Both the position numbers and the translations under genes were made by a program. Below, piece after piece: positions 1 to 16,502 of a DNA stretch of 18,167 nucleotides (its first letter is position 1; each line of letters begins with the position of its first letter). The notes under the pieces are model-generated. The model had not been told where the DNA came from. It did not search any database and worked only from the letters and a program-made list of their open reading frames with translations. The DNA comes from an uncultured Mycoplasma sp. Its GTDB lineage: Bacteria > Bacillota_I > Bacilli_A > Mycoplasmatales > Mycoplasmoidaceae. The stretch is taken from positions 1-18,167 of the forward strand of contig CAMWHH010000001.1 of assembly GCA_947174035.1 (NCBI GenBank), read 5' to 3'.

Positions 1-57
1 AAATTATTTTGATCTATAGCTTTTGATAAAAGATGGAAATTATATCTTTATATATAA
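1..57 (+). other. possible 3' end of an upstream gene
   Basis: With TGA read as Trp, the frame starting at base 1 stays open for 18 codons and closes at a TAA (55-57). It would encode a short hydrophobic and aromatic tail with two Trp. The other two forward frames close quickly. Eighteen codons are too few to identify a protein, and the stretch could equally be non-coding. A weak 6-bp inverted repeat (about 29-48) is visible but has no convincing T-run. Confidence 0.2.
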
Positions 58-83
58 AATAAAAGTTTGAAACTTAACTTAAG

Positions 84-92
84 TGATATAAT
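84..92 (+). promoter_or_regulatory. extended -10 promoter of the S10 operon
   Basis: TGATATAAT fits the extended -10 consensus (TG, one base, TATAAT) exactly. A TTGAAA lies at 67-72, but the spacer to the -10 is only 14 nt, so it is probably not a functional -35. Extended -10 promoters tolerate a poor -35. Transcription would start near base 99, leaving a leader of about 125 nt before rpsJ. No comparable promoter is seen again until after rplQ. Confidence 0.6.
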
Positions 93-98
93 TATCAA

Positions 99-225
99 GT
101 ATGCATTAATTATTGAGATTGCTGATACACCAATATTAGTTGTCGGGATTATCAGGGAACTCATTGTTAGTGGTAAGTTGGTTTAAAACCAATAGTATTT
201 TGAAAGGACAACTTAGAAATAAATT
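99..225 (+). promoter_or_regulatory. 5' leader of the S10 operon, possibly structured
   Basis: This non-coding leader is more GC-rich than the spacers around it and contains two visible pairings. AGTTGTC (138-144) is exactly complementary to GACAACT (207-213). Inside that, TTGGTT (178-183) and AACCAA (187-192) can form a tight hairpin. The right arm of the long pairing overlaps the only purine-rich Shine-Dalgarno-like motif, AAAGGA (203-208), which sits an unusual 17 nt before the rpsJ ATG. S10-operon leaders in other bacteria can carry r-protein-responsive structures (L4 in E. coli). Whether this one does is inference, and no resemblance to a named leader family was recognised. Confidence 0.4.
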
Positions 226-534
226 ATGAAAAATGAGATGAAAATTAAATTATTTTCTTATGATCATAGGTTGCTAGATCAATCTGTAAGAAAAATAATT
301 AAAAGTTCACAAGATAGTGGTGCTAAGGTTAAAGGACCTATTCCACTTCCTACAAAAAAAGAAATATTTACGATTTGTCGTTCTCCACACGTAAATAAAA
401 CTTCTAGAGAACAATTTGAAAGAAGAACACATCAACGTTTGATTATTTTGGTTAATACTACAGAAAAAACAAAAGAATACTTGAAAAATATCATAATACC
501 TTCTGGAGTTGATATCCAAATTACACTTAAATAA
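226..534 (+). CDS. rpsJ: 30S ribosomal protein S10
   Basis: S10 is a small-subunit head protein near the tRNA sites; in other bacteria it is also the NusE antitermination factor. The 102-residue length is normal. The family signature is clear: YDHRLLDQS near residues 12-20, a central PLPTKKE segment, and [13 protein letters not shown] in the loop. ATG 226 is the best start, because the frame is closed upstream by TAG (214-216). A second ATG at 238 has no ribosome site of its own. The nearest AAAGGA is 17 nt upstream, unlike the 4-11 nt spacing of most genes here. First gene of the operon; L3 follows after 20 nt. Confidence 0.97.
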
Positions 535-554
535 TTATTTGGAGGATTAATATT

Positions 555-1445
555 ATGAAAATGATTCTTGGAAGAAAAATAGGTATGATTCAAAGTTTTT
601 TAGAAGATGGAACTAAGATACCTGTTACAGTTATTCAAGCTGAACCAAATGTAGTATTAGAAAATAAAACAAAAGAAAAAAATGGCTATGTAGCAACAAA
701 AATTGCTTATGGTAAAGTTGAAGAAAAAAAATTAAACAAACCACAAAAAGGTTATTTTAAAAAACTTAAAGTGGAACCACATAAGTACACTAAAGAATTA
801 AGAGATGTATCAGGTTATAATGTTGGCGACAAAATTTTAGTTGATATTTTTAATTCTGGTGATAAAGTAGATGCCCAAGGAATTACTAAAGGAAAAGGGT
901 TTACTGGTGCAATTAAAAGATGAAACTTTAAAATTGGACCTTTAGGTCATGGTGCTGGTTATCCTCATAGATATCAAGGATCTATCTCTTTTGGTAGAGG
1001 GGGAAGCCAAGGTCAAAGAGTACCTAAAGGACAAAGAATGTCTGGACACTACGGACATGAACTTGTAACTATTAGCAATTTAACTGTTGTTGGTATTGAA
1101 GTAGAAAAAAACTTGATTTTAATAAAAGGTTCAGTGCCTGGACCAATTAATAGTTTGATTTTGTTAAAAACAACTGTTAAAAGAAAAAAACAAGTTAATC
1201 CTTTAAAACTTTCTGATCCTGAAGCAGTTGCTAGAGCTATTAGAGAAAAAGAAGAACAAGCTAAACTTGCGCAAGAAGCTAAAAAAGCAGAAGCTCATCA
1301 AAAAGCAGAAGCTGAAAAAGAAGCAAGAAAGCAAGAAATGATAGCTAAACAAAAAGCTGCTGAGGAAAAACAACATGCTCAACAAGAAGCAAAAGCAGAA
1401 GCTAATGAAAATAAAACTGATGAAAAGAAAGAAGGAGATAAATAA
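555..1445 (+). CDS. rplC: 50S ribosomal protein L3 with long helical C-terminal extension
   Basis: L3 is a primary 23S rRNA binder that reaches to the peptidyl transferase centre. The start is supported by GGAGG at 541-545. TGA 921-923 is a Trp codon in the conserved region after IKR; the frame then continues through [13 protein letters not shown] and RMSGHYGHE, both L3 landmarks. The protein has 296 residues against about 210 usually. From about residue 215 on, the tail is almost only Ala, Glu, Lys and Gln, with heptad-like spacing, so it should form a single helix or coiled coil. Extended L3 is also known in Mycoplasma pneumoniae. The stop overlaps the rplD start (TAATG, 1443-1447), suggesting coupled translation. 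Confidence 0.97.
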
Positions 1446-2083
1446 TGAGTTCTGTTAAATTATTAAAAGACCTTTTAGGAAATACTGAAGAAGTAGAACT
1501 AAAAAATAATAAACTTTTCATCAAAGAAATTAATACTCAAGAATTATTTAATTCAGTATTAGTAGCTAATGCTAATGAAAGACAATCAACTGCTTCAACT
1601 TTAACAAAAGCTGAAGTTAGAGGTGGGGGAAGAAAACCTTATAAACAAAAACATACAGGTAGAGCTAGACAAGGTTCAATTAGAAACCCTCATTATGTAG
1701 GTGGTGGTAGAGCTTTTGGACCAACTCCTGAAAAAAACTATACTTTAAAGCAAAATTCAAAAGCATATAAATTAGCTTTTAAATCAGCAATGACTTTAAA
1801 GTTAAATGAAAAGGGACTGAATTTATTAAGTAACAAAATTGAAATGAAAGAACCTTCTACTAAAACAATTTCTAAATTGTTAAAAAAAGTTTCATATGAT
1901 GATAAAAAAATTCTTTTTGTTATTAATGAAACAAAAAATGAAAACTTTTTAAAATCTTGTCAAAACTTAGAAAAAGTAGTTTCAAAAACATGAAATCAAG
2001 TTTCTGCAAAAGATATTCTTAACAGTGATATAGCTGTTATTCAAGAAGATGCTTTTAATAAAATTAGTGAGGTATTTGCATAA
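1445..2083 (+). CDS. rplD: 50S ribosomal protein L4
   Basis: L4 (212 residues, normal size) binds 23S rRNA domain I and sends an extended loop into the exit tunnel. That loop is visible at about residues 58-88, with GGGRKPYKQKHTGRARQGS and the following GGGRAFGP. The ATG lies 7 nt after AAGGAG (1432-1437), which is within the end of rplC. TGA 1991-1993 encodes Trp and the frame runs on to TAA 2081-2083, which overlaps the rplW ATG (TAATG). No terminal extension is present, unlike L3, L22, L23 and L29. In E. coli L4 represses its own operon through the leader; nothing here proves this. Confidence 0.97.
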
Positions 2084-2502
2084 TGGATTTGTTAAGTGTA
2101 ATTGTAAAACCACTTCATTCAGAAAAATCTTATTCATTAAGAAATGAAGATGTTAAAAAATATGTTTTTGAAGTAAACAAAAATGCTAATAAATATGAAA
2201 TTAGTTTAGCATTTCAATTAATTTATGGAATTGCTCCTGAAAAAGTTAATGTTGTTAACAGAAAACCAGCTCCTACAAGAACTGGTACTAGAAATCCAGG
2301 AATGACTAAAGCAAAAAAAATTGCTTATATTACTTTACCTCATGGTGTTGATATTCAAATAGAAGAAGATCAACCTAAAGAAAAAGAAACAAAAAAAGAC
2401 ATTCCAAAAGATTTAAAAAAAGAAAATAGAGAAGAAAAAAAAGAAAAACCTAAAAAAGGTGTTTTATCAAAATTAGTAAAAACTTCTCCAAAAGCAAAAT
2501 AA
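2083..2502 (+). CDS. rplW: 50S ribosomal protein L23 with lysine-rich C-terminal tail
   Basis: L23 lies at the nascent-chain exit and is the docking point for trigger factor, SRP and the Sec translocon. The core (about residues 1-95) shows the usual IVKPLHSEKS start, YVFEVNKNANKYEI and the VNVVNRKPAP loop. The protein is 139 residues, about 40 more than a typical bacterial L23. The extra part (about 96-139) is a charged Lys/Glu tail ending in a basic KLVKTSPKAK. The start codon overlaps the rplD stop, with GTGAGG (2067-2072) as a modest ribosome site. A 35-nt spacer separates it from rplB. Confidence 0.96.
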   Translation: MDLLSVIVKPLHSEKSYSLRNEDVKKYVFEVNKNANKYEISLAFQLIYGIAPEKVNVVNRKPAPTRTGTRNPGMTKAKKIAYITLPHGVDIQIEEDQPKEKETKKDIPKDLKKENREEKKEKPKKGVLSKLVKTSPKAK

Positions 2503-2537
2503 AAATATAGTTAGGCGAAAAGCGAAAGGAAGCAGAT

Positions 2538-3377
2538 ATGCCAATTAGAAGAGTCAAAGCAAGAAGTAGCGGAATCAGACAAACAATTATTATTGATTAC
2601 AAAAAAGTTTTAACTACTTCTGTTCCTGAAAAATCTTTAGTAGTAGCTATTAAAAAACATTCAGGAAGAAATAACAATGGAAAAATAACTGTAAGACACC
2701 ATGGTGGTGGTTACAAAAAGAAATATCGTATTATTGATTTTAAAAGAGACAAAATTAATAAAGTTGCTACAGTTAAATCAATTGAATATGACCCAAACCG
2801 TACATCTTTTATATCTTTAGTGGTATATGAAGATGGTGAAAAAAGATATATTATTACTCCAAAAGATTTAAAGGTTGGAGACAAAATATTATCAAGTAAC
2901 AAACAAATAGATATTAAAGTTGGTAATGCTTTACCAATTTCATTAATTCCAGAAGGTACATTTGTTCATAATATTGAACTTTATCCAGGTCGTGGAGGAC
3001 AAATGATTAGATCAGCAGGTTCTTCAGCACAAATATTGGGTAAAGATGAAACTGGAAATTATATGATTGTAAAACTTTCGTCTGGTGAAGTAAGAAAAGT
3101 ACCTAATTTATGTATGGCAACAGTTGGTGTTGTTTCAAACGAAGAACACAACTTAGTTGTTGTAGGGAAAGCTGGTATCAACAGACATAAAGGTATCAGA
3201 CCAACAGTAAGAGGTTCAGCAATGAATCCAAATGATCACCCACATGGGGGTGGTGAAGGAAGATCACCAGTTGGACATGATGCACCAAGAACTCCATGAG
3301 GTAAAAGACACATGGGTGTTAAAACTAGAAATAAAAAGAAAGCATCTAATGCACTGATTGTTAGAAGAAAGAAATAA
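2538..3377 (+). CDS. rplB: 50S ribosomal protein L2
   Basis: L2 is needed for subunit joining and peptidyl transferase activity. The 279 residues match the family length. The C-terminal hallmark around residues 229-242, [12 protein letters not shown], includes the conserved histidine near the catalytic centre. TGA 3297-3299 encodes the Trp of the conserved PWG motif, and the frame continues through [10 protein letters not shown] to TAA 3375-3377. AAAGGA (2525-2530) sits 7 nt before the ATG. No extension is present. S19 follows after 18 nt, the universal order. Confidence 0.97.
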
Positions 3378-3395
3378 TATTGAGAGGTTAATAGG

Positions 3396-3674
3396 ATGTC
3401 AAGAAGTTCAAAAAAAGGTCCATATGTTGAACCAAGTTTAATGAAAAAAGTGCAAGCAATGAAAGAAAGCGATAAAAAGAAACCAATCAAAACATGATCT
3501 AGAAGAAGCACAATTTTTCCAGATTTTGTTGGTTTAACTTTTGAAGTTCACAATGGAAAATCATTTATTAATGTTTATGTAACTGAAGATATGATTGGGC
3601 ACAAACTTGGAGAGTTTGCGCAAACAAGATCATTCAAACAACACACAAGCAATAGAAAAGATTTAGTTAAATAG
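3396..3674 (+). CDS. rpsS: 30S ribosomal protein S19
   Basis: S19 is a head protein next to S13 that contacts the A-site finger of the 50S subunit. The 92 residues carry the family signature: [18 protein letters not shown] at the start, [12 protein letters not shown], and [19 protein letters not shown]. The Trp at residue 34 is TGA (3495-3497), so a standard-code search would miss the gene. GAGG (3383-3386) precedes the ATG by 9 nt. The stop is TAG, and rplV follows after 14 nt. Confidence 0.97.
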
Positions 3675-3688
3675 TTAAGGAGTAAACA

Positions 3689-4324
3689 ATGCAAGCAAAA
3701 GCAAGTCAAGCAAATATTCATGTTTCACCAAGAAAAGCTAAATTAGTGTGTGACTTAATTAAAAATAGACCAGTTACAGAAGCTTTAACAATTTTAGAAA
3801 ACACTCACAAAAAAACTGCTGTATTTCTAAAAAAATTATTGCATCAAGCAATTGCTAATGCAACTAACAATCATGCAATGCAAGCTGATAAATTATATGT
3901 TTATACAGTTGTAGCAAATCAGGGATCAACATTAAAAAGAACAATGCCAAGAGCAAAAGGGTCTGCTGATTTAATCAGAAAAAGACACACTCATTTAAAA
4001 ATTGTTTTATCAGATGATCAAAACGAAAGAAAAAAAGAAATTGAATCTATCAAAAAAAGAATTAAAAAAAGAGCTGCTAATAATAAAGGTTATTCGGCAA
4101 AACAAAGAGCTGCAAATGAAAAAGGTTTAAAAACAGTTGAAAAAACTAAAAAAGTAAAAACAACTAAACCTGTTGCAAAACCTGAACCAAAAAAAGAGGT
4201 TGCTAAAGTTAGCAAACCAGTTTCTAAAGTTCAACCAAAAAAAGAAGATAGCAAAGTTACTAAGCCAGTTAGTAGTAAAAACAAACCAAGTGTTTCAAAA
4301 ACAAACAAAGCAAAAGCAAAATAG
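3689..4324 (+). CDS. rplV: 50S ribosomal protein L22 with about 100-residue basic tail
   Basis: L22 lines the exit tunnel with a long beta hairpin and opens at the tunnel mouth. Residues 1 to about 110 are a standard L22: VSPRKAKLVCDLIKNRPV, ANATNNHAM, and the tunnel hairpin with TMPRAKGSAD followed by RKRHTHLKIVL. A typical L22 ends there. This one runs to 211 residues. The added part is Lys/Val/Pro/Ser-rich with repeated KPVSKV- and PKKE-type units and is probably disordered. AAGGAG (3677-3682) is 6 nt before the ATG. A 21-nt tail sequence recurs in rpmC. Confidence 0.96.
   Translation: MQAKASQANIHVSPRKAKLVCDLIKNRPVTEALTILENTHKKTAVFLKKLLHQAIANATNNHAMQADKLYVYTVVANQGSTLKRTMPRAKGSADLIRKRHTHLKIVLSDDQNERKKEIESIKKRIKKRAANNKGYSAKQRAANEKGLKTVEKTKKVKTTKPVAKPEPKKEVAKVSKPVSKVQPKKEDSKVTKPVSSKNKPSVSKTNKAKAK
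4177..4197 (+). repeat. 21-nt repeat copy 1 (L22 tail)
   Basis: A 21-nt identical sequence is shared with 5060-5080 in the rpmC tail. Both copies are in the same orientation and reading phase and encode KPEPKK. It is rich in A and could arise from similar codon choice, but exact identity over a stretch that includes the CCTGAACC core is notable. Confidence 0.6.
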
Positions 4325-4342
4325 CAAATTTAAGGAGTTATT

Positions 4343-4765
4343 ATGTTAGAACCAAAACGTACAAAATATAGAAAGCCACATAAAGTAAGTTATGAGGGAA
4401 AAGCCAAAGGTAATAAATATGTAGCTTTTGGTGAATTTGGATTAATGGCAACTTCAGGGGCATGAGTTTCAAACAGACAAATTGAATCAGCTCGTATTGC
4501 TATTTCAAAAGCACTTGGAAAAACAGGAAAAATGTGAATTAGAATTTTTCCACACTTATCATTAACAAAAAAACCTTTAGAAGTTCGTATGGGTTCTGGG
4601 AAAGGTTCACCAGAAAAATGAGTTGCTGTAGTTAAAAACGGAACTGTTATGTTTGAAGTTGCAAACATTCCAGAAGAGGCAGCAAAAGCAGCATTAAAAA
4701 ATGCAGGCAACAAACTTTCTGTTAATTGAAAAATAGTTAAGAAGGGAGAAATTGCACATGATTAA
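4343..4765 (+). CDS. rplP: 50S ribosomal protein L16
   Basis: L16 sits at the base of the central protuberance and helps position A-site tRNA. The 140 residues match the family. [42 protein letters not shown] and the KGSPE loop are all typical. Four Trp codons are TGA, breaking the gene badly under the standard code. AAGGAG (4333-4338) precedes the ATG by 4 nt. The last eight bases overlap the start of rpmC, so the two are probably translationally coupled. Confidence 0.97.
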
Positions 4766-5336
4766 GGATTTAAGAACAAAAAGCGATAATGAATTGGGTA
4801 ATTTAATTTCTAAACTAAAAGTTCAATTACTAGAAATGAGATTTAAGATTGCCAACGGTGAAGTAGAAGGCGTTCATAAATTAAAAGAAATTAGAAAAAC
4901 TATTGCAATGGCAATGACAGTTCTTTCTGAGAGAAATGTGAAAATTTCTTTTTCAACATTTAATACACAGTTAATTAAAGAAAAAGGTGGTAAGCAACAA
5001 ATTATTGGTTTACCAATTGTCACTGAAAAGGATAGTAAAACAGTTTCTAATCACAAACAAAAACCTGAACCAAAAAAAGAAACTGATAAAAATGTAAATA
5101 AAACAAATCAAGAAGTGAAAAAAGAAACAACTTTGAAAAAAGTTGAAACAAAAAAAACTGATAACAAAAAATCAGAACCTAAAAAGAATACTAATAAACC
5201 AGTTAGTGCAACTAAAACATCAACAACTGATTCTAAAGTTGTTTCAAAAAACAAACCAAAAACTGCTAATAAATCAGCTAGCAAAAAACCTACATCTTCA
5301 ACAAAACCAAAAACACCAGCGAAAGGAAAAAAATAA
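4758..5336 (+). CDS. rpmC: 50S ribosomal protein L29 with about 125-residue basic tail
   Basis: L29 is a small two-helix protein at the tunnel exit beside L23, usually 60-70 residues. Residues 1 to about 65 fit: [20 protein letters not shown], then LLEMRFKIANGE and KEIRKTIAMAMTVLSER. The chain then continues to 192 residues with a Lys/Thr/Pro/Ser/Asn-rich low-complexity tail ending in PAKGKK. I chose ATG 4758, with AAGGGAGA at 4742-4749 about 8 nt before it, over an upstream in-frame TTG at 4752, because L29 proteins begin at this Met. It overlaps rplP by 8 nt. Long L29 tails are known in several mollicutes. Confidence 0.94.
   Translation: MIKDLRTKSDNELGNLISKLKVQLLEMRFKIANGEVEGVHKLKEIRKTIAMAMTVLSERNVKISFSTFNTQLIKEKGGKQQIIGLPIVTEKDSKTVSNHKQKPEPKKETDKNVNKTNQEVKKETTLKKVETKKTDNKKSEPKKNTNKPVSATKTSTTDSKVVSKNKPKTANKSASKKPTSSTKPKTPAKGKK
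5060..5080 (+). repeat. 21-nt repeat copy 2 (L29 tail)
   Basis: Exact match to 4177-4197 in the L22 tail. It encodes KPEPKK at a similar position, shortly after the folded core. The two tails also share KPVS and SKNKP units at the protein level. Confidence 0.6.
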
Positions 5337-5338
5337 TT

Positions 5339-6580
5339 ATGGGTCAAAAAGTTAATCCAAATGGTTTAAGAATTGGAATTATTAGAAATTGAGAATCAAG
5401 ATGAATTGCTAAAGACAACAAACAAACAGCTTTATGATTGGTTCAAGATGACAAAATAAGAAAACACATTTTCAAAGTTTGTAAAGCAGCACAAGTTTCA
5501 CATGTTGAAATTGAAAGACAGCAAAACAAAATTGATATTTTCATTCATTGTTCTCAACCTGGAATTGTTTTAGGTAAAGATATGGTTAATTTAAAAGCTT
5601 TGAAAAAGCAATTAAATTATATTGTAGGTAGAAAAACAAAAGTTAATGTAAATGTATTACCAATTGATAAACCAACTTTTTCTGCAAGAATTATTGCAAG
5701 AGAAATTGCTGATGCAATTGAAAACAGATTTTCTTTTAGAAATGCTCAAAAGATTGCAATTAAAAAAGTATTAGCTTCAGGTGCAAAAGGAATTAAAACA
5801 AATGTATCTGGTCGTTTGGGTGGTGTTGAAATGGCTAGAGAAGAGGGATATTCTGAAGGAATTGTTCCTTTAACAACTTTAAGAGCAAATATTGATTATG
5901 CTTTAGAAGAAGCTTGAACAACATATGGTTTAATTGGAGTAAAAGTTTGAATTAATCGTGGGGAACTTTTCAAAAAATCAAATTCACAATTTAATAAATT
6001 TGAAAGAAAACCACTTGAAAAAAGAAAACCTGAAATCCAACAACCTAAACCTGAGTTTAAAAAACCAGTTGAAAAACCAGTTGAAGAAGAAAAACCAGCT
6101 AAGCCAGTAAAAGCAGAAACTTTAAAACGTGAAAAAGAAGTTTTAAAAGTAGTTGAGTCTAAAGCTGATGAAACTGGTAAAAAAGGTAAAGTTGAAGAAA
6201 CAGCAATTATTATGATTTCAACTAAACATGAATATGCTGACAACTTATTAAATGAAGACTTAAACAAAAATGTTTTCTTTTACAAAGTTACACCAGTTAA
6301 CCCAATTGAAAGAGTTTTAGTTTATACAACTACAGGTAAAAAAGAAGTTATTGGTGAATTCGATTTGGAAAAAATTGAAATTTTATCAATCGAAAGTGCT
6401 TGAAGAAAATATGGTAAACAATCTTGTATGTCAAAAGCAGATTTTGATGAATATTATAAAGATTATAATGGTGAAGCACACGTACTTATTTCTAAAGAAG
6501 CTTTTAAATATAGCAGATCTAAAAAACTTGAAAACTATGGAATGAAAAAAGGCCCAAGTGGTTTCCAATACTTAAAATAA
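5339..6580 (+). CDS. rpsC: 30S ribosomal protein S3 fused to a C-terminal ASCH (PUA-like) domain
   Basis: S3 forms the mRNA entry site with S4 and S5. Residues 1 to about 210 are a full S3: [16 protein letters not shown], the KH domain, [24 protein letters not shown] and GLIGVKVWINRGE. The usual length is 210-275; this chain is 413. About 211-288 is a Lys/Pro/Glu linker with repeated [14 protein letters not shown] units. Residues 290-413 form a second domain that fits the ASCH pattern: a [15 protein letters not shown] first helix, [21 protein letters not shown] strands, [19 protein letters not shown], and a final GPSGFQYL. Many TGA Trp codons occur, and the frame is continuous to TAA 6578-6580. 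In the KH loop GKKG is replaced by GKDM (residues 79-82). AAAGGA (5322-5327) is 11 nt before the ATG. Confidence 0.93.
6206..6577 (+). other. ASCH-like domain encoded in rpsC (residues 290-413)
   Basis: ASCH proteins are PUA-related beta-barrels; stand-alone bacterial members typically run from a K-x-EYA helix through Y-x-S/T-x-P-x-K-x-V-x-GEF to SKEEFxxYFxG and end in PPQSFxYL. Here the order is HEYADNLL, Y329[12 protein letters not shown]341, [14 protein letters not shown], then G405-PSGFQYL412. The two most conserved family spots have changed: the EFRK-like segment after the first helix reads VFFYKV, and PPQSF reads GPSGF. An RNA-binding role without the enzymatic activity reported for some ASCH proteins is plausible. 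Assignment is by eye. Confidence 0.7.
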
Positions 6581-6600
6581 TTTAGTGAAAGGATAAGATT

Positions 6601-6873
6601 ATGAGCAATCAAGTTAGTACAAGAGACAGCAGAAGAAAAATTTTGCAAGGAACTGTAGTTTCTGACAAAATGCAAAAAACTATTGTTGTACAAGTTGAAA
6701 CTAAGTCTAAACACAGACTTTATAAAAAATTAGTAATTACTCACAAAAAATATCATGCACATGATGAAAAAGAAGAATGCAAAATTGGTGATTTTGTTGA
6801 AATCATGGAAACTAGACCGTTAAGTGCTACAAAGCGATGAAGATTAAATAAGATCATTCAAAAAGCTAAATAA
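6601..6873 (+). CDS. rpsQ: 30S ribosomal protein S17
   Basis: S17 is an OB-fold primary binder of 16S rRNA. The 90 residues show [22 protein letters not shown], then HKKYHAHDE and [18 protein letters not shown], all diagnostic. The Trp of KRW is TGA (6838-6840), and the frame ends at TAA 6871-6873. The N-terminus ([11 protein letters not shown]) is slightly longer than the shortest family members. AAAGGA (6588-6593) precedes the ATG by 7 nt. Confidence 0.97.
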
Positions 6874-6900
6874 TTTTTAAAAAATTAAGGGGTAAATAAT

Positions 6901-7269
6901 ATGATTCAATTTATGACAAAACTTAATGTAGCAGATAATACTGGTGCTAAACAAGTGGGAGTAATTAAAGTATTGGGTGGAACTAAAAGAAGATATGCTT
7001 CAGTTGGAGATATTGTAGTAGTTTCAGTAAAAAAAGCTCAACCTGATGGAATTGTTAAAAAAGGTCAAGTTTGTAAAGCTGTTGTAGTACGTGTAAAAAA
7101 GAATATTTTAAGATCAAGTGGTAATTCACTATCTTTTGATGATAATGCTTGTGTAATTATTAAAGAGGATAAAACACCAAGAGGTTCACGGATTTTTGGA
7201 CCAGTAGCAAGAGAACTAAGAGACAAAGGGTTTTCTAAAATTGTTTCTCTAGCTTCAGAAGTACTTTAA
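6901..7269 (+). CDS. rplN: 50S ribosomal protein L14
   Basis: L14 is a highly conserved 23S-binding protein at the subunit interface, where it forms part of bridges to 16S rRNA. The 122 residues are the standard length. The start [17 protein letters not shown] matches the family, so ATG 6901 is secure, with AAGGGG (6887-6892) 8 nt upstream. [12 protein letters not shown], the FDDNACVII region and GTRIFGP-like [13 protein letters not shown] are present. One Arg in that last motif is the rare codon CGG. This is the first gene of the classical spc cluster, but only a 27-nt spacer without a promoter precedes it. Confidence 0.97.
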
Positions 7270-7280
7270 GGAGTTAAATA

Positions 7281-7601
7281 ATGCAAAGATTAAAAAAAGG
7301 TGACAAAGTTAGAGTTATTTCAGGTTCTGAAAAAGGAAAAGAAGGAACAATTTTAAAAGTTTATCCAAAACTAAATAAAGCACAAGTTGAAGGAGTTAAT
7401 GTTAGAAAAAAACACATTAAACCAAACCAAAACAAACAAGAGGGTGGAATTGAAGAAGTAGCAATTCCAGTTAATATGTCAAAATTAGCTTTGATTGATT
7501 ACAAAGCAAAAGGTAAAACAACAAGAATTAAATTTGGTTTTGACAAAAATAATAAAAAAGTTAGAATTTCAAAAATTTCTAACAATGAAATTACTAAGTA
7601 A
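7281..7601 (+). CDS. rplX: 50S ribosomal protein L24
   Basis: L24 initiates 50S assembly and lies near the tunnel exit with L22, L23 and L29. The 106 residues begin with a KOW motif ([18 protein letters not shown]) and contain [14 protein letters not shown] and the [15 protein letters not shown] segment. Unlike its exit-site neighbours, it has no Lys-rich tail. AAGGAG (7268-7273) overlaps the rplN stop and lies 7 nt before the ATG. Confidence 0.97.
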
Positions 7602-7615
7602 GGAGGAAAGAAGTT

Positions 7616-8179
7616 ATGGCTAGTAAAACAAGTCTTTATGATAAATATAAAAAAGACATTTCAAAGTCTTTAATGAAAGAATTTAATTACAAATCTGTAA
7701 TGGAAGTTCCTCGTCTAGAAAAAATTGTAATTAATTCAGGTTTAGGTGATGCTACTTCAGATTCAAAAATAATTGAAATAGGTTTAAAAGAATTACACTT
7801 AATTACTGGACAAAAACCAGTGGCAACTAAATCAAAAAAATCAATTGCTACTTTCAAATTAAGAGAAGGTCAAGCAATTGGTGCTAAAGTAACACTTAGA
7901 AAAGAAAACATGTGAAATTTTTTAACTAAGTTAATATCTGTTGCAATTCCTCGGATTAGAGACTTTAGGGGTTTATCAGTTAAATCTTTTGATGGAAAAG
8001 GTAATTATACATTTGGAATAAAAGAACAAATTATTTTTCCAGAAATTGTTTATGATGATGTAAAAAAAATTAGAGGATTTGATATCACAATTGTGACTTC
8101 AGCAAAAACAGATAAAGAAGCATTATTTTTATTAAAAGAATTAGGAATGCCTTTTGTAAAAACAAAGGAGACAAAATAG
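7616..8179 (+). CDS. rplE: 50S ribosomal protein L5
   Basis: L5 binds 5S rRNA in the central protuberance and contacts S13. At 187 residues it is close to the family size (about 180). Features include [49 protein letters not shown] and the C-terminal [19 protein letters not shown] 7913-7915 encodes Trp within KENMWNFL, after which [10 protein letters not shown] follows; the first Arg of that motif is CGG. GGAGG (7602-7606) precedes the ATG by 9 nt. The stop TAG is one base before rpsN. Confidence 0.97.
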
Positions 8180-8180
8180 T

Positions 8181-8366
8181 ATGGCAAAAAAATCATTAAT
8201 TGTTAAACAAAAAAAACATCCTAAGTTTAAAGTTAGAGCTTATACAAGATGTGAAAGATGTGGTAGACCAAGAGCTGTAATTAGAAAATTTGGAATTTGT
8301 CGTTTGTGTTTCAGAGACCTTGCATATAAAGGTGCAATTCCTGGTGTTAAAAAGGCGTCTTGATAG
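8181..8366 (+). CDS. rpsN: 30S ribosomal protein S14, zinc-binding type
   Basis: This is the short, zinc-binding (C+) S14 of Gram-positive lineages. In its 61 residues, Cys24, Cys27, Cys40 and Cys43 form the C-x2-C-x12-C-x2-C site. The final residue is Trp, encoded by TGA (8361-8363) and followed at once by TAG, giving the KKASW end typical of the family. Under the standard code the gene would lose its terminal Trp. AAAGGAG (8164-8170), inside the end of rplE, serves as ribosome site. One base separates the rplE stop from this ATG. Confidence 0.97.
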
Positions 8367-8383
8367 GATAGGAGGATTTTAAT

Positions 8384-8779
8384 ATGTACATGGATCCAAT
8401 TTCAGATTTACTGTTAAGAATTAAAACAGGAACAAAAATTAAAAAATCTCATGTTGTTGTTAGAACATCTAAATTAGTTACAAACATTTTAAAAATATTA
8501 AAAAATGAAGGTTATATTGTTGATTTTAAAAATGAATCAATTGGTAAAAACAAAACACAAACAGTTGTATTTTTAAAATATAAAAATAATGTTTCATCAA
8601 TAACAGGATTAAAACAAATTTCTAAGCCAGGTCTAAGAATTTATAGTGAAGCTCAAAAATTACCTAAAGTTTTAAATGGTTTAGGTATTGCAATTATCTC
8701 AACTAGTATGGGTTTAATGACTGATAAAAAAGCAAAACAAAACAACATTGGTGGCGAAGTTATTGCTTATATTTGATAG
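8384..8779 (+). CDS. rpsH: 30S ribosomal protein S8
   Basis: S8 organises the central domain of 16S rRNA; in E. coli it is the repressor of the spc operon. The 131 residues include MDPISDLLLRIKTG at the start, KPGLRIYSEAQKLPKVLNGLGIAIISTS and a final GGEVIAYIW. The last Trp is TGA (8774-8776), directly followed by TAG. ATG 8384 is preferred over ATG 8390, because GGAGGA (8371-8376) is 7 nt from the first and 13 nt from the second. Confidence 0.97.
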
Positions 8780-8788
8780 GAGAAAAAA

Positions 8789-9340
8789 ATGTCAAGAGTT
8801 GGAAATAGATTATTATCAATCCCAAGTGGTGTTAATGTAGAAATTGAAAAATTTCTTGTTAAAGTAAGTGGGAAACTTGGAACATTAGCAATTCCTTTTG
8901 ATAATAAAAAATTATCAGTATTAAACAAAGATTCAATGATTATTGTAAAAAGAGCTAATGATGAAAAACAAACAAAAATGCTTCATGGAACAACTAATGC
9001 TAACATTAAAAATGCACTAGTTGGTGTGAGTGAAGGCCATACAAAAAAATTAAAAGTTACAGGTGTTGGTTATAGAGCAGCAGTTAGTGGTAGCAAAATT
9101 ACTTTAAGTTTAGGATATTCACACCCTGTTATTTTAGATATTCCACAAGGTTTAACTGTAACATGTCCCCAAGTTACAGAAATTGTAATTACAGGTGCTG
9201 ATAAAGCTGTTGTTGGACAGTTTGCAGCAGTTATTAGAAGCAAAAGACCACCAGAACCTTATAAAGGTAAAGGTGTTGCTTATGCTGATGAAGTGATTGT
9301 TAGAAAAGTTGGTAAAACAGCTGAAGGTTCTAAAAAATAA
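8789..9340 (+). CDS. rplF: 50S ribosomal protein L6
   Basis: L6 lies near the GTPase-associated region and consists of two similar alpha/beta domains. At 183 residues it is slightly longer than usual. MSRVGNRLLSIPSGV starts the protein. GVGYRAAVSGSKITLSLGYSHPV and the C-terminal RPPEPYKGKGVAYADEVIVRKVGK signature are unmistakable. AGGAG (8778-8782), overlapping the rpsH TAG, is 6 nt before the ATG. No extension is visible beyond a short EGSKK end. Confidence 0.97.
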   Translation: MSRVGNRLLSIPSGVNVEIEKFLVKVSGKLGTLAIPFDNKKLSVLNKDSMIIVKRANDEKQTKMLHGTTNANIKNALVGVSEGHTKKLKVTGVGYRAAVSGSKITLSLGYSHPVILDIPQGLTVTCPQVTEIVITGADKAVVGQFAAVIRSKRPPEPYKGKGVAYADEVIVRKVGKTAEGSKK

Positions 9341-9355
9341 TTTAGGAGTTAGTTT

Positions 9356-9715
9356 ATGAAAAATATTAATCTTAATAGAAAAGAAAAAAGAGTTGAACGT
9401 CATAAAAAAGTTCTTAGAAAATTTAGAAGAATTGATAACGGTTTACCAAGACTACGTGTTACAAAAACTAATCAGCACATCTTTGCACAATTGTTAGATG
9501 ACAACAAAAACATTGTGCTTGCTTCTAGTTCATCTTTACAACTTAAACTAGCTAATGGAAATATTGAAAACAGCAAAAAAGTTGGTGAAGATATTGCTAA
9601 AAAAGCTTTAAACAAAAAAATTAAATCAATTAATTTTGATTGTGGGGGATCAAAATACCACGGAAGAATATCAGCATTAGCAGATGCTGCAAGAAAAGCA
9701 GGATTAAAATTTTAG
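9356..9715 (+). CDS. rplR: 50S ribosomal protein L18
   Basis: L18 binds 5S rRNA with L5. The 119 residues match the family, with an Arg/Lys-rich N-terminus (RKEKRVERHKKVLRKFR), PRLRVTKTNQHIFAQLLDD, and the C-terminal YHGRISALADAARKAGLKF ending. AGGAG (9344-9348) is 7 nt before the ATG and 3 nt after the rplF stop. The order L6-L18-S5 is the conserved one. Confidence 0.97.
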   Translation: MKNINLNRKEKRVERHKKVLRKFRRIDNGLPRLRVTKTNQHIFAQLLDDNKNIVLASSSSLQLKLANGNIENSKKVGEDIAKKALNKKIKSINFDCGGSKYHGRISALADAARKAGLKF

Positions 9716-9733
9716 GATATTAAGGATATAAAA

Positions 9734-10441
9734 ATGGAAGAAATTAAACAAGCGACTTCTGAAACAGAAAAAAAATCAGAAGTAAAAGAAGGTAGTAATA
9801 ATACCTTAGAAAAAAACAAAAAACAATTTATTAAAGCTAATTCATCAAATATAAAACCATTTGAAAAAAAATCAGCACCAGGTAACAAAAAATCTTTTTC
9901 AAAAGATGGTGCAAGTTCAGGCGGTGGAAACAGACCAGCAAAAATTTCTAAACAATCAGTTACAGGTTATGAAGAAAAAATTGTAGGGGTTAAAAAGATT
10001 TCTAAAACTACAAAAGGTGGTAGAAATATGAGATTTTCTGCCTTAGCAGTTATTGGTGATAGAAAAGGAAATGTGGGATTTGGATTAGGTAAATCTATTG
10101 AAGTTCCAGTTGCAATTCGTAAGGCTTTAAAAAGCGCTAAAAACAACATGTATAAAATAAAAATGAACAAAAATTTCACTTTATACCATGAAGTAATTGG
10201 TAAACATGGTGCTGGTAAAGTTTTAATTAAACCAGCTCCAAAAGGTACTGGGGTAATTGCTGGTGGGCCAATTAAGGTTGTTTTAGAGTTATGTGGTTTT
10301 AAAGATGTTTATTCAAAAAACTTAGGAAGAAATACTTCTTTAAACATGGTTAGAGCTACTATTAAAGGCTTACAAATGCAAAAATCTCCTAAAGAATATG
10401 CTGCTCTTAGAGATAAGCAATTAAAAGAAATATGGGAGTAG
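9734..10441 (+). CDS. rpsE: 30S ribosomal protein S5 with N-terminal extension
   Basis: S5 shares the mRNA entry site with S3 and S4 and influences decoding fidelity. The conserved part begins near residue 78 ([19 protein letters not shown], double-stranded-RNA-binding type fold) and continues through [18 protein letters not shown] to [22 protein letters not shown] and LKGLQ-type end regions. In most bacteria this core starts near residue 10-20. About 60 residues are added in front: a Ser/Lys/Asn/Glu-rich, probably disordered segment. The total is 235 residues. AAGGA (9722-9726) is 7 nt before the ATG, so the extension is translated rather than a misplaced start. The next gene is rplO, not rpmD. 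Confidence 0.96.
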
Positions 10442-10444
10442 AAT

Positions 10445-10888
10445 ATGAAATTAGAAAGTTTAAAAAGCAATAAAGGTTCTAGACATAAAACTAAACGTGT
10501 TGGTAGAGGTTTTGGTAGTGGAATAGGAAAAACTTCTACACGTGGAAGTAAGGGACAAAAATCTAGAAAATCAGGTCACACAAGACCAGGTTTTGAAGGT
10601 GGTCAAACTACTTTATATAGAAGAATTCCTAAGATTGGTTTTAATAATAAAAATTTTGCTAATGAATATAATGTAGTAACTTTATCTAATATTGTTAAAT
10701 TAGATATTGCTAATGTTGATAAAAAAGTTTTATTAGAAAAAAAATTAATTGATAACAATAAGTTACCAATCAAAGTAATTGGTGTTGCTGAAATCAAAAA
10801 ACCAATTTCAGTTTCAGCTCATAAATTTTCAAAAGGTTCTTTGCAAACCCTTGAAAAAAGCAAGTCAAAAGCAATCATAATTAAATAA
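10445..10888 (+). CDS. rplO: 50S ribosomal protein L15
   Basis: L15 is a late-assembly 23S-binding protein. The 147 residues start with a Gly/Arg/Lys-rich extended arm ([20 protein letters not shown], then [19 protein letters not shown]), followed by [10 protein letters not shown], all characteristic. GGGAG (10434-10438), inside the end of rpsE, serves as ribosome site 6 nt before the ATG. In most bacteria secY follows immediately. Here the stop is followed by a terminator hairpin. Confidence 0.97.
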
Positions 10889-10895
10889 TTTTCAA

Positions 10896-10939
10896 TATTA
10901 AAACAAGTGTTAATCACTTGTTTTAATAATTTATTTTTT
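10896..10939 (+). terminator. intrinsic terminator after rplO
   Basis: A perfect 14-bp inverted repeat (arms 10896-10909 and 10915-10928) surrounds the loop TTAAT. A T-rich stretch (10930-10939) follows. The base of the stem is A/T, and its upper part (ACAAGTG) provides the GC. It should end or strongly attenuate transcription of the S10-spc unit, at the point where secY would be expected. Confidence 0.85.
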
Positions 10940-10969
10940 AAAAATAAAAAATTTTGAACGGGTTTTAAA

Positions 10970-11623
10970 ATGAAATTAGTTTTACTGGGTGCGCCAGGAT
11001 CTGGAAAAGGCACTTTTTCTGAATATATAGTTAAAAATTACAATTTAGTTCATCTATCAACTGGAAATATTTTTAGAAAGACTATGGATGAAAAAAGCTT
11101 GTATTGGGAAGAATTAAAAAGTTATATGTCTAAAGGTTTATTAGTTCCAGATGAATTAACAAACAAGATTGTTAAATCAACTTTAGACTCATATGGTAAT
11201 TCTAAAAGTTTTATTTTAGATGGATACCCAAGAACAATTGCACAAGCAGATTTTTTGTCAGCAATCACTGATATTGATGTTGCAATTTATTTAAATGTTC
11301 CTTTAGATGAATTAGAAAAAAGATTAATTGGAAGAAGAATTTGTAATAAATGTAAAAGAATTTATAACATTTACTACAGTAAGCCAAAACAATTTGATAT
11401 TTGTGATGATGATGGTGAAACTTTAATTCAAAGAAAAGATGACCAAAAAGAAGTTATTGAAGAAAGAATGAGAGTTTATAAAATAAATACAGAACCATTA
11501 GTTGACTATTACAAAAAAATCAACAAGTTATTTACAATTTATAACAAAGAATTTGATTCAATAACTAATGATATTGATGATTTATTAATTAATAAATTTA
11601 ATTTAAGAAAGAATAAAAATTAA
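10970..11623 (+). CDS. adk: adenylate kinase with zinc-type LID domain
   Basis: Adenylate kinase converts ATP plus AMP to two ADP in the cytosol. The 217 residues contain the P-loop GAPGSGKGT (7-15), the AMP-site LSTGNIFR, and DGYPRT (84-89). The LID is the long form with a structural zinc site, C125-x2-C128-x16-C145-x2-D148, the Cys3-Asp variant seen in Gram-positive enzymes. It follows a terminator by about 30 nt. There is no clear ribosome site (only ACGGG near 10958) and no convincing promoter, although TTGTTT (10918-10923) and TAAAAA (10939-10944) are a weak pair. Adk next to map is standard; the missing neighbour is secY. Confidence 0.97.
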   Translation: MKLVLLGAPGSGKGTFSEYIVKNYNLVHLSTGNIFRKTMDEKSLYWEELKSYMSKGLLVPDELTNKIVKSTLDSYGNSKSFILDGYPRTIAQADFLSAITDIDVAIYLNVPLDELEKRLIGRRICNKCKRIYNIYYSKPKQFDICDDDGETLIQRKDDQKEVIEERMRVYKINTEPLVDYYKKINKLFTIYNKEFDSITNDIDDLLINKFNLRKNKN

Positions 11624-11624
11624 T

Positions 11625-12365
11625 ATGATTTATATAAAATCAGATTATGAAATTGAACAAATTAAAAAAGCATGTGAAGTTTGAAAAAAAGTAAAACAAG
11701 TTTTATTAGAAAACACAAAACCAGGTAAATCATTAATTGAACTGGATGAGTTAGCAAAAAAAGTAACTTTAGAAAATGGGTGTACAACACCTTTTCACAA
11801 ATATCATGGTTTCCCAGGTTATAATTGTATTTCAGTGAATGATGTAGTAATTCACGGAGTCCCAACCAACTACAAATTAAAAAATCTAGATATTGTTACA
11901 TATGATGTTGGTGTTGCATATAATGGTTACATATGTGATGCTGCTTTTAGTGTTGTTTTAGGAAACAATAAAGAAGCTGAAAAAATTAATGAAGTTTGTT
12001 TTAACTCTTTAATGGAAGGAATTAAACAAATTAAACCTAACAATCATATTGGTGACATATCTAGTGCTATTGAAGACTATGTTAACAAACATGGTTATCA
12101 TGTAATTCAAGATTTTGGTGGACATGGGTGTGGTAGAAAATTACATGAAGATCCCATTATTTTGAATTACGGAAAAAAAGGATCAGGTCCTTTAATAAAG
12201 AAAAACATGGTTTTATGTATTGAACCAATGATTTTCACAAATAATGCAAATTATTATATTGATAAAGACAAGTGATCAGTTATAGCAGAAAACCATTTAC
12301 TTACATGCCATTGAGAACATATGGTTTTAGTAACAGAAAATGGTTGTGAAATACTAACTGAATAG
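11625..12365 (+). CDS. map: methionine aminopeptidase, type I
   Basis: Map removes the initiator methionine from new proteins as they leave the ribosome. In the 246 residues, the two-metal ligands expected for the family are present: D94 and D105 (YDVGVAYNGYICDAAF), H167 (GGHGCG), E200 (IEPM) and E231 (WEHMVLVTE). The substrate-side His77 is also present. Three Trp codons are TGA, so standard-code searches recover only the middle of the gene. There is no ribosome site; the ATG is one base after the adk stop, so coupled translation is likely. The stop TAG is 7 nt before infA. Confidence 0.97.
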
Positions 12366-12372
12366 AGGTTAA

Positions 12373-12591
12373 ATGTCAAAAGAAGGAAAAATAACATTAA
12401 AAGGTAAAGTAACTACTGCTTTACAAGGAGGACAATTTAAAGTCCTTTTAGAAAACAATGTTGAAATTACGGCAAACGTATCTGGTAAAATCCGTGTTTA
12501 TAAAATACAGATTTTAAAAGGTGATACTGTTGAAGTTGAGTTAAGTCCATATGATTTAACACGTGGTCGTATTATTTATAGAATATCTTAA
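12373..12591 (+). CDS. infA: translation initiation factor IF-1
   Basis: IF-1 occupies the A site of the 30S subunit during initiation. The 72 residues are a single OB fold of standard length: [20 protein letters not shown], then [46 protein letters not shown] (12364-12368), overlapping the map stop, is 4 nt from the ATG. Its position between map and rpmJ is conserved in Firmicutes and Mollicutes. Confidence 0.97.
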
Positions 12592-12615
12592 TTTAAATAG
12601 GGGGAGAGAATAATA

Positions 12616-12729
12616 ATGAAAGTTAGATCTTCAGTTAAACCTATTTGCAAAGATTGCAAAGTTATCAACAGACACAGTCGTGTTATGATTATTTGTAAAA
12701 CTGCAAAACATAAGCAAAGACAAGGATAA
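12616..12729 (+). CDS. rpmJ: 50S ribosomal protein L36
   Basis: L36 is the smallest ribosomal protein (37 residues here). It reads [20 protein letters not shown] at the start, and Cys11, Cys14, Cys27 and His32 form the usual zinc site. A strong purine-rich ribosome site (AGGGGGAGAG, 12599-12608) precedes the ATG. It fills the gap between infA and rpsM, exactly where the family is found in related genomes. Confidence 0.96.
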
Positions 12730-12747
12730 TAAAATTTTGGAGGAAAG

Positions 12748-13122
12748 ATGGCTCGTATATTAGGGGTTGATATTCCAAATAATAAAAGAGTGGTAATCTC
12801 TTTAACTTATATTTTTGGAATTGGAAAATCAAGAAGTCAAGAAATTTTATCAAAAGCAAAAATCGATGAAAACAAAAAAGTTTCTTCTCTTTCAGAAGAA
12901 GAATTAGCTACGATTAGAAAAATAGCAAGTGAATATGTAATTGAAGGTGATTTACGTAGAGAAGTTGCTATGAACATTAAACGTTTAATGGAAATTGGTT
13001 CTTATAGAGGAATTCGTCACAGAAGAAATTTACCTGTTAGAGGGCAAAGAACAAAATGTAACGCAAGAACAAGAAAAGGACCAAGAAAAACTGTAGCAAA
13101 CAAAAAAATTGAAACTAAGTAA
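12748..13122 (+). CDS. rpsM: 30S ribosomal protein S13
   Basis: S13 is a head protein that contacts P-site tRNA and forms bridges with L5. The 124 residues begin [20 protein letters not shown], followed by [14 protein letters not shown], and end with the basic [20 protein letters not shown] and RKGPRKT region that reaches the tRNAs. GGAGG (12739-12743) is 4 nt before the ATG. It is the first gene of the alpha cluster in other bacteria; no separate promoter is visible. Confidence 0.97.
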
Positions 13123-13143
13123 TAATTAGGAGGATATTTATAT

Positions 13144-13515
13144 ATGGCAAAGAAAAGAAAAAAGAAGTTAAGTTCTCCTGAGGGAATTGCTCACATTCAT
13201 GCATCTGCTAACAATACAATTGTTACATTAACAAATACTGGTGGCGATGCAATTGCTTGATCAAGTTCTGGGTCAATTGGTTATAAGGGTTCAAAAAAAT
13301 CAACTCCATATGCTGCTGGTGTTGCAGCTGAAACAGCTGCTAAAGTAGCAATGGATTTAGGTTTAAAAAAAGTTATAGTCAAAGTAAATGGAACAGGTAG
13401 TGGGAAAGATACTGCAATTAGAAGTTTACATGTAGCAGGATTGGAAATAACTGAAATTCATGATGTTACACCAATTCCACATAATGGTTGTAGACCACCT
13501 AAAAAACCAAGATAA
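13144..13515 (+). CDS. rpsK: 30S ribosomal protein S11
   Basis: S11 lies on the platform near the E site and the mRNA exit. The 123 residues show [28 protein letters not shown], with the Trp encoded by TGA (13258-13260), then [18 protein letters not shown] and the ending [17 protein letters not shown]. Under the standard code the gene would be cut after about 38 residues. AGGAGG (13128-13133) precedes the ATG by 10 nt. rpsD (S4), present here in some bacteria, does not follow. Confidence 0.97.
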
Positions 13516-13533
13516 TCTAAGGAGAATAAATAA

Positions 13534-14526
13534 ATGGAAAAGTTTTTAAGATATAGTATTCAAATTGGGAAAGACCAAAATAAAGATTCAGACTATGGGA
13601 TTTTTGTTATTAAACCATTAGAAAGAGGTTTTGGAAATACAATTGGTAATAGTTTGAGAAGAGTTTTATTAAGTAACATTGTAGGACACAGTTTATTTGC
13701 TGTAAAAATTCCTGGCATTACACATGAATTTCAACCAATTAAAGGTGTTAAAGAAGATTTAACTCAAATCATTTTAAATTTAAAAAAACTAGTTGTAAAA
13801 ATCGACCAACAAATTTTTGGTGAAGATGAACAAAAAGAAACAAGCTTAGAAAAATGACCAACACTAAAAATTGATTTCTCAAAAGGTGGAGTAGTTAGAG
13901 CTTCTGATATTGAAACACCAGTTGGTTTTGAAATTATCAACAAAGATATGTATATTGCTACAGTTGATAGTGGTGCAAAATTAAAAATGGAACTTTTTGT
14001 AAAAACTGGAAGAGGTTTTGTTACATTTAGTGAAAACAAAGAATTAATCAATGCAATTAATGTTATTGCAGTTGACTCAAATTTTTCACCAGTTATTAAA
14101 GTTGGTTACAAAGTTAGTGATATTAAAACTACAAAAAATGAAATCAATGATGTTTTAGAATTAGAAGTTGCAACAAATGGTTCAATTTCTGCTGCTGAAG
14201 CAGTGGCAATGAGTGCAAAGATTTTAGAAGAACATTACAAACCAATTGTTACTGAACTTTTTGAGAACTATAATGACCTTAAAGTTATTAATGAAGAAGC
14301 AACAATTCCTACAAGCAAGTCTTCATTAGCAATTTCAATTGATGAATTAGAATTATCAGTTCGTTCTTACAATTGTTTAAAAAGAGCAGGTATTCATACA
14401 ATTACTCAGTTAACTGATAAAACAAAAAGTGAAATTGAAAAAATTAGAAATCTTGGTAAGAAATCATTCAAAGAAATTATTAAAAAAATTCAAGACAGAA
14501 ATTTAAAATTAAAAGAAGAACAATAG
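13534..14526 (+). CDS. rpoA: RNA polymerase alpha subunit
   Basis: Alpha nucleates RNA polymerase assembly. The N-terminal domain (about residues 1-235) contains [20 protein letters not shown] near 30-50 and the dimerisation and beta-contact strands. The C-terminal domain (about 265-325) has [18 protein letters not shown]; Arg277 corresponds to the DNA-contacting Arg265 of E. coli, and [10 protein letters not shown] follows. At 330 residues it has full length with a short linker. TGA 13855-13857 encodes Trp. AAGGAG (13518-13523) is 10 nt before the ATG. The retained alpha-CTD suggests that UP-element or activator contacts remain possible. Confidence 0.97.
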
Positions 14527-14535
14527 GAGTATTTT

Positions 14536-14895
14536 ATGTCTTATATCAACAAAAAAGGTAAAACTACTTCTTGGAGAAAAATGGTAATTCGTCAACAAGT
14601 TTCTGAAGTTATTGCTAATAATCAAATTAAAACAACATTAACAAAAGCAAAAGAAACTAGAAAACATGTAGATAAAATTATCACATTAGCTAAAAAAGAT
14701 ACATTAGCTTCTAAAAGAGCAGCAGCAGCAATTCTTTTAGATACATCTATTTCAACAAAATCTCAATTACTGCAAAAATTATTTAATGATTTACAAAAAA
14801 AATATAAAAGCAGAAATGGTGGATATACAAGAATTTTAAAACTTGGAAAACGTCAAGGTGATAATGTTGAAGAAGCTATTCTTCAATTAGTTTAA
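14536..14895 (+). CDS. rplQ: 50S ribosomal protein L17
   Basis: L17 lies near the tunnel exit region on the 50S back side. The 119 residues include TTSWRKMVIRQQVSEVIANNQI, the TKAKETRKHVDKIITLAKKD helix, and the C-terminal KSRNGGYTRILKLGKRQGDN signature. AGGAG (14525-14529), overlapping the rpoA stop, is 6 nt before the ATG. The Trp here is TGG, so both codons are in use. It is the last gene before the second terminator. Confidence 0.97.
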   Translation: MSYINKKGKTTSWRKMVIRQQVSEVIANNQIKTTLTKAKETRKHVDKIITLAKKDTLASKRAAAAILLDTSISTKSQLLQKLFNDLQKKYKSRNGGYTRILKLGKRQGDNVEEAILQLV

Positions 14896-14897
14896 TT

Positions 14898-14932
14898 AAA
14901 ATCTATGCTTAATGCATAGATTTTTTATTTTA
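14898..14932 (+). terminator. intrinsic terminator after rplQ
   Basis: An 11-bp perfect stem (arms 14898-14908 and 14914-14924) with loop TTAAT is followed by a T-rich run. It closes the ribosomal supercluster. The pentaloop is the same as in the terminator after rplO. Confidence 0.85.
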
Positions 14933-14936: not shown

Positions 14937-14969
14937 TATTTAATGTTTTAAAGAAGGGGAATTTAATTT

Positions 14970-16499: not shown

Positions 16500-16502
16500 G
16501 TT

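Follow-up and report, generated by a model that had tools for sequence, protein, structure and literature searches.

What is the second domain that closes ribosomal protein S3 in an uncultured Mycoplasma sp., and does it belong to S3 at all? The gene lies in a stretch of 18,167 nucleotides (hereafter the window; contig CAMWHH010000001.1, positions 1 to 18,167) that carries the S10-spc-alpha ribosomal operon of a Mollicute reading TGA as tryptophan, from a genome (G000) of 787,487 bases in 139 contigs, 79.7% complete. S3 occupies window positions 5339-6580 of the forward strand as a single open frame that encodes 413 residues in code 4, and because six TGA codons need to be read as Trp (W18, W22, W33, W193, W204 and W355), the frame fragments under table 11. 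Its C-terminal part proved to be a derived ASCH domain, which is also borne by other ribosomal proteins and by ATP synthase alpha (AtpA), has not strictly descended with its carriers and may act as a tethered binder of RNA or nucleotides. Numbers preceded by G, L and P are handles for genomes, loci and data-bank proteins.

The original prediction, made from the letters of the window, had the S3 frame read on into a second, folded-looking domain and named, among what would undo it, a sequencing error hiding a stop near residues 210-290. No such stop was found across relatives. The same C-terminal end is reached by 39 of the 40 data-bank proteins, the 40th (P0041) being a cut fragment, and by all 23 strong genome matches (E <= 4.2e-20), and in each of these the end reads GP[SK]GF[QTR]YLK; the motifs quoted in the prediction, including GPSGFQYL, are present in the frame. 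The module is under purifying selection: the ratio of non-synonymous to synonymous substitution rates (dN/dS) over the last 125 codons is 0.054-0.267 in seven of seven close S3 pairs, which have genomes in common and so are not independent. The number of genomes and these ratios together rule out an assembly error or a hidden stop, and the fusion is confirmed as real. An Rfam search of the window gave no match.

Pfam recognised KH_2 at S3 residues 39-112 (E 3.7e-17) and Ribosomal_S3_C at residues 123-205 (E 3.9e-32) and nothing else above its cut-off in this protein, which may explain why relatives stand in the data banks as plain S3; carriers, where named, are annotated merely as S3, L22 or ATP synthase alpha. 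A linker of 44-61 residues (20 S3 rows, duplicates included) separates the S3 core from an Arg-Glu (RE) motif. In the full-length model of S3 the linker is without secondary structure, at a predicted local distance difference test score (pLDDT) of ~23-45, but this model is poor (mean pLDDT 58.7, predicted template modelling score 0.34) and scores the established S3_C domain at 25-47, so that the low linker values prove nothing about disorder. The original prediction was right about the presence of the module and placed its start, at residue 290, too late: we set it at ~257, because a short Arg-Glu helix accompanies the barrel. Of the 62 module rows, a set that includes eight duplicates and spans S3, L22, S20, S16 and AtpA, 61 have the Arg-Glu, and the helix has a pLDDT of 89 over its first ten and 80 over the next ten residues in a model of the module, as against ~45-55 in the full-length model.

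The model of the module is an ASCH/PUA-like beta-barrel, and the fold proposed earlier for the S3 end is thus also the predicted one. Homology agrees with it, as hhalign against eight standalone Mollicute ASCH proteins gave a probability of 99.7 (E 3.5e-25), a PDB profile search reached E 1.3e-13, and the module is homologous over its whole barrel to such proteins, among them one of its own genome (L001:1177-1548). This L001 protein passes the threshold of the ASCH family PF04266, which gave no match to the window S3 at E up to 1, nor to four further fusions (L008, L010, L017 and L028) at E up to 0.1. In the own genome the standalone gene, with its signature intact, stands directly 3' of a gene with HPFNDGNGR, which we take to be a Fic-type motif (L001:49-1548 region).

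The modules compared were those with the end GP[SK]GF[QTR]YLK, a choice that excludes P0041 and distant forms described below; merging of eight identical rows reduced 62 to 54. The ASCH signature is given as GxKxxxxR in PMC5615036. Its Lys is kept in 51 of the 54 modules, whereas its Gly, its Arg and the Glu that precedes this Arg are each found in none: Phe, Leu, Val or Ile stands at the former Glu place in 54/54, and Tyr (48) or Phe at the former Arg place in 51. Likewise the P-Q-S-F motif near the C-terminus has its Pro and Phe in 54/54 and its Gln and Ser in 0/54, Gln-Ser being replaced by Ser/Lys-Gly throughout. This agrees with the altered signature and PPQSF-type motifs noted earlier. 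The eight standalone Mollicute proteins, by contrast, are unfused, keep G19, K21, E24, R26, Y40 and PQSF in 8/8, and have the Glu before the signature Arg and P-Q-S-F near the C-terminus. The modules have fixed residues of their own instead: Phe and Lys next to the former motif, a GEF, and the C-terminal end, in which the residue before YLK tracks the carrier (Gln in 49 of 49 on S3, L22 and S20, Thr in 4 of 4 on AtpA, Arg in the one on S16). The module is thus a derived ASCH, homologous and of the same predicted fold, that lacks the signature features and should not be filed as an ordinary member of the family.

Its nearest solved relative, ZmASCH of Zymomonas mobilis, of a nuclease type marked by Mg-dependent cleavage of single-stranded RNA, binds single-stranded RNA and DNA through Tyr47, Lys53 and Ser128, according to PMC5615036, whose residue names we mapped onto the modules by our own alignment (structures 5guq, 5gus, 5y6b and 5y6c). 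In this mapping of cleft residues shown or modelled to matter in ZmASCH, 53 of the 54 modules keep the Tyr47 place, 52 that of Tyr90 and 48 that of Thr49, and the Lys53 place holds Lys in 33 and Arg in one (Lys/Arg 34). The places of Glu30 and Arg32 are hydrophobic or aromatic in the module and those of Gln127-Ser128 are Ser-Gly; moreover ZmASCH is unfused, whereas the module sits on ribosomal proteins or AtpA and ends at GPSGFxYLK. All 54 modules carry a positive net charge (+1 to +10) over their last 125 residues. We infer a non-catalytic binder, most likely of single-stranded RNA or a nucleotide; the earlier suggestion of binding in place of catalysis is plausible.

Does the module belong to S3? 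When the domain of S3 was searched against 5.8 billion proteins, with candidates restricted to 0.55-1.75 times the query length, it yielded 40 proteins, which are fusions to S3, L22 and S20. Across 320 genomes of the order a profile search returned 23 matches at E 2.5e-54 or better, the next lying at 1.7e-23; all 23 are in the genera Malacoplasma (g1), in each of its ten genomes, and g11, in five of ten, and all are fusions, to S3, L22, S20, S16 or AtpA. S3 is the sole carrier in G000, G026, G027, G028 and G029 and one of two, with L22, in G022, G024 and G030; L22 is the sole carrier in G025 and is joined by S20 in G023. In G085, G086, G088 and G094, together the Ureaplasma clade of the S3 tree (support 100/100; the tree covers 28 of 29 genomes, G011 being left out, and G093 gave no S3 match), L22 and AtpA carry the module, and S16 carries it in G090, a genome 64% complete. 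The G090 S16 protein (L017:1501-2994, reverse strand) has ~485-498 residues, its module being preceded by a long acidic stretch and another, unassigned region. At least one ribosomal carrier is thus present in all ten Malacoplasma and all four Ureaplasma-clade genomes, though the carrier differs. Among data-bank entries, those of Malacoplasma penetrans carry the module on S3 and L22, and alpha fusions are found in Ureaplasma urealyticum, U. canigenitalium, U. zalophigenitalium, U. miroungigenitalium and Ureaplasma sp.; U. diversum NCTC 246 and U. canigenitalium ATCC 51252 have two loci each. The pattern [KR]GPSGF[QT]YL occurred in 17 stretches of the named genome collection, 15 of them true relatives, at 14 loci.

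The original prediction saw in the fusion a feature of S3, positioned where mRNA is fed into the ribosome. S3 is indeed a carrier in eight of the ten Malacoplasma genomes. However, the same module sits on L22, in the large subunit, on S20, on S16 and on AtpA; S3 is without it in G025, G023 and four Ureaplasma genomes; and the S3 and L22 copies of G024 are under the same constraint (see below). A device specific to S3 is therefore largely refuted, and we regard it as highly improbable. The roles in mRNA capture, collision sensing or hibernation put forward earlier found no direct support.

The modules have also not strictly descended with their carriers. In a tree of the 54 modules and six outsiders the carrier labels need 13 changes where the minimum is six; 21 of its 57 inner branches are weak, and the long rows (G090, G027 and g6) are uncertainly placed. 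Approximately unbiased (AU) tests on 53 modules, omitting the S16 module of G090 and run after the tree had been seen, the carriers being the natural groups, rejected a single clade of S3 modules (p 4.8e-5) and of L22 modules (p 7.8e-7). In Ureaplasma the L22 and AtpA modules group together in a single clade (98/94.8), and L22 of P0006 pairs with S3 of P0007 (100/98), two proteins not necessarily of one genome. Within the M. penetrans-like genome G024 the aligned tails of S3 and L22, 571 bases that begin within the linker and end at the stop, share 90.7% identity, and the two modules have 98% protein identity with dN 0.010 and dS 0.284, which indicates the same constraint at both positions; the L22 modules of G024 and G025 are 75% identical, and the L22 and S20 modules of G023 69%. 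Losses are apparent too. In G000, G026, G028 and G029, L22 still ends in a Lys/Pro tail that resembles the stretch before the module on L22 of G024, and this looks like loss of the module in those four.

Such mobility could mean that the module is largely a neutral or selfish passenger, recombination copying the 3' end of one gene to another and selection merely preventing misfolding. Modules that do not follow their carriers, the homogenisation in G024, common loss from single carriers and the five g11 genomes without a module would all fit. It is difficult to reconcile with a ribosomal carrier kept in 10/10 Malacoplasma and 4/4 Ureaplasma-clade genomes, with dN/dS well under 1 in 7/7 pairs, and with residues invariant in 54/54 modules across carriers, and we consider it distinctly improbable.

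A module that acts alone might be fused to abundant proteins simply to ensure its copy number, perhaps with proteolytic release, in analogy to the ubiquitin fused to eukaryotic ribosomal proteins. The carriers are abundant housekeeping proteins, and their identity would then be immaterial. Within the sensitivity of the searches, however, no standalone copy of the module was found: among proteins of ~83-264 residues that share exact words the four matches are all S20 fusions, and the 23 strong matches in the 320 genomes are fusions too. Nine of the 14 weaker loci that were read out are standalone ASCH proteins, eight of them plainly so and of 123-128 residues. Furthermore, the linkers vary and no constant cleavage site was recognised, save possibly the RE motif, which is confidently folded in the module model. 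This explanation is quite unlikely.

We tentatively favour, at somewhat less than an even chance for the statement as a whole, a tethered, non-catalytic binder, probably of RNA or nucleotides, for which being on the ribosome matters and the place there does not. The ribosomal carrier present in every Malacoplasma and Ureaplasma-clade genome, the AU rejections, the equal constraint on the two G024 copies, the kept Tyr47, Tyr90 and Thr49 places and the positive charge speak for it. The RE helix and derived ASCH barrel would be one module that evolution moves between abundant housekeeping proteins; its work would require attachment to the ribosome and a high copy number at no fixed ribosomal site, the long linker would let it sample its surroundings, and loss from one carrier would be tolerated while another ribosomal protein bears it. 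The modules on ATP synthase, whose end differs slightly (GFTYLK), would be a second population that meets this type of target at the membrane. A fuller version, in which an accessory domain with a function required by these bacteria at the ribosome switches between S3, L22, S20 and S16, its copies at times kept alike by recombination, and the AtpA copy shares their target and links F1 to ribosomes, RNA or membrane, appears rather doubtful.

Several observations weigh against this binder. ATP synthase carries the module yet is no RNA machine. Residues for RNA in the Z. mobilis protein are lost, the Arg32 place being Tyr in 48/54, the Gln127 place Ser in 52/54 and the Ser128 place Gly in 54/54 (Ser in 0/54), by our mapping to PMC5615036. 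The module changes faster than the S3 core, for which dN/dS is 0-0.063 in the same close-pair comparison. No match at all was found in five of the ten g11 genomes (G087, G089, G091, G092 and G093, completeness 74-93%), so the family is able to live without the module. The S3 and L22 modules of G022 and of G030 are 77-79% identical and cluster by carrier, and homogenisation is therefore not general. The incompleteness of the source genome means that further carriers could be missing from it.

The strongest rival is a docking tag. The module would bind a single protein partner, be it of the cytoskeleton, of the membrane or the module itself, and so anchor large complexes such as ribosomes and ATP synthase; its RNA cleft would be a remnant. 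The site on the ribosome would not matter, and carriers that are both ribosomal proteins and F1 alpha, a polar pocket turned hydrophobic or aromatic, and the new near-invariant end GPSGFxYLK would all be accounted for; the ATP synthase copies are better explained in this way than by a binder of RNA or nucleotides. Two g6 genomes, which carry a distant form of the module on ATP synthase alpha within a full atp gene cluster, also have it (2/2) at the end of a Pro-rich protein, again as a tag would. The kept Tyr47, Tyr90 and Thr49 places and the positive charge better suit nucleic acid, and docking seems to us somewhat unlikely. The g6 proteins (L080:5678-6979 and L081:5625-7118) are Pro/Gln-rich, with alike N-terminal regions and a distant ASCH-type end, and Pfam gave no match for the one tested (L018). 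A putative ATP synthase alpha gene was seen in eight of ten Malacoplasma genomes (none in G000 and G026; the L086 copy was read out and is cut by a contig end) and gave no ASCH match, the C-termini not having been read. The Malacoplasma beta subunits (L094-L103), without ASCH match in the genome searches, have N-terminal extensions of widely differing length in open frames of 504-774 residues.

Replacement of a hibernation factor by the module was also considered. HPF (PF02482) is found in 0 of 15 module-bearing and 35 of 80 other genomes of family f1 (Fisher p 0.0008), with no match in any of the 20 g1 and g11 genomes and matches in 35 of the other 75. The pattern allows no conclusion, because the five module-less g11 genomes also lack HPF (5/5) and the S3 tree gives only one to three independent pairs. 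The collision factor Smr (PF01713) is absent from all 95 f1 genomes and so is uninformative.

The original prediction knew of no described S3-ASCH fusion, and by title and abstract start we found no open-licence paper on ASCH fusions to ribosomal proteins or on Ureaplasma alpha-subunit or L22 extensions of this kind; a report outside this set may exist. PMC5615036 remarks on homology of the ASCH domain with ribosomal proteins, and PMC4014445 has a supplementary table marking gene fusions, in which the M. penetrans fusion may be mentioned. The related M. pneumoniae likewise has long C-terminal tails on ribosomal proteins, mostly predicted disordered and with secondary structure in S6, L22 and L29, whereas its S3 extension is 17 residues long and the available text mentions no folded ASCH domain (PMC9534751). 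A folded domain that keeps to the ribosome while its attachment moves from the small to the large subunit, and to ATP synthase, is unexpected for the most conserved machine of the cell, and it exemplifies the evolution of a domain across essential genes that are not related. Eukaryotes also place one small domain, ubiquitin or Fubi, on different ribosomal proteins; there it has the ubiquitin fold, is N-terminal and is cleaved off, and here an ASCH fold is C-terminal. If the fuller version above holds, carrier switching would be a hitherto unknown means by which a ribosome function is built and maintained. The carriers provide a natural test of what a function tethered to the ribosome depends on, its place or the tethering alone, and the named species make the module testable by ribosome structures and proteomics.

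Table 1. Parts of the S3 fusion and neighbouring genes in the window
Feature	Position	Strand	Basis or remark
Ribosomal protein L22, 211 residues, Lys/Pro tail, no module	3689..4324	+	
Ribosomal protein L29, Lys/Pro tail, directly 5' of displaced S3	4752..5336	+	
Ribosomal protein S3 core, residues 1-207, KH_2 and S3_C	5339..5959	+	Pfam, code 4 translation
Lys/Pro/Glu-rich linker, residues 208-256, probably flexible	5960..6106	+	Composition, variable length
RE helix, residues 257-273, first part of shared module	6107..6157	+	Arg-Glu conservation, module model
Variable spacer, residues 274-287	6158..6199	+	pLDDT ~57 (277-286, module model), length varies
ASCH-fold barrel, residues 288-413 (fold predicted)	6200..6577	+	
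C-terminus GPSGFQYLK, residues 405-413, strictly kept	6551..6577	+	Stop codon 6578-6580 follows

The gene order around S3 (window 3689-6580) is L22-L16-L29-S3-S17 instead of the usual L22-S3-L16-L29-S17. G026, G028, G029 and G025 likewise have L16 between L22 and S3, with L29 hidden there by the open reading frame filter, and a 1.17-kb gap in G024 fits the order L22-L16-...-S3, probably the same; S3 directly follows L22 in G022, G023, G027, G030 and the four Ureaplasma genomes. SecY is absent between L15 and adenylate kinase (window 10888-10970): it is on another contig in G000, G028 and G029, in the operon region in G024, G025 and G027, and was not found in G026. After L17 stand two tandem, divergent Peptidase C1-like (Peptidase_C1_2) genes (14970-17954). 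Long tails rich in Lys, Pro, Glu and Ala also occur on L3, L22 and L29 and, N-terminally, on S5 (approximately 1203-1445, 4121-4324, 4950-5336 and 9734-9960, respectively), those of L22 and L29 looking alike by eye.
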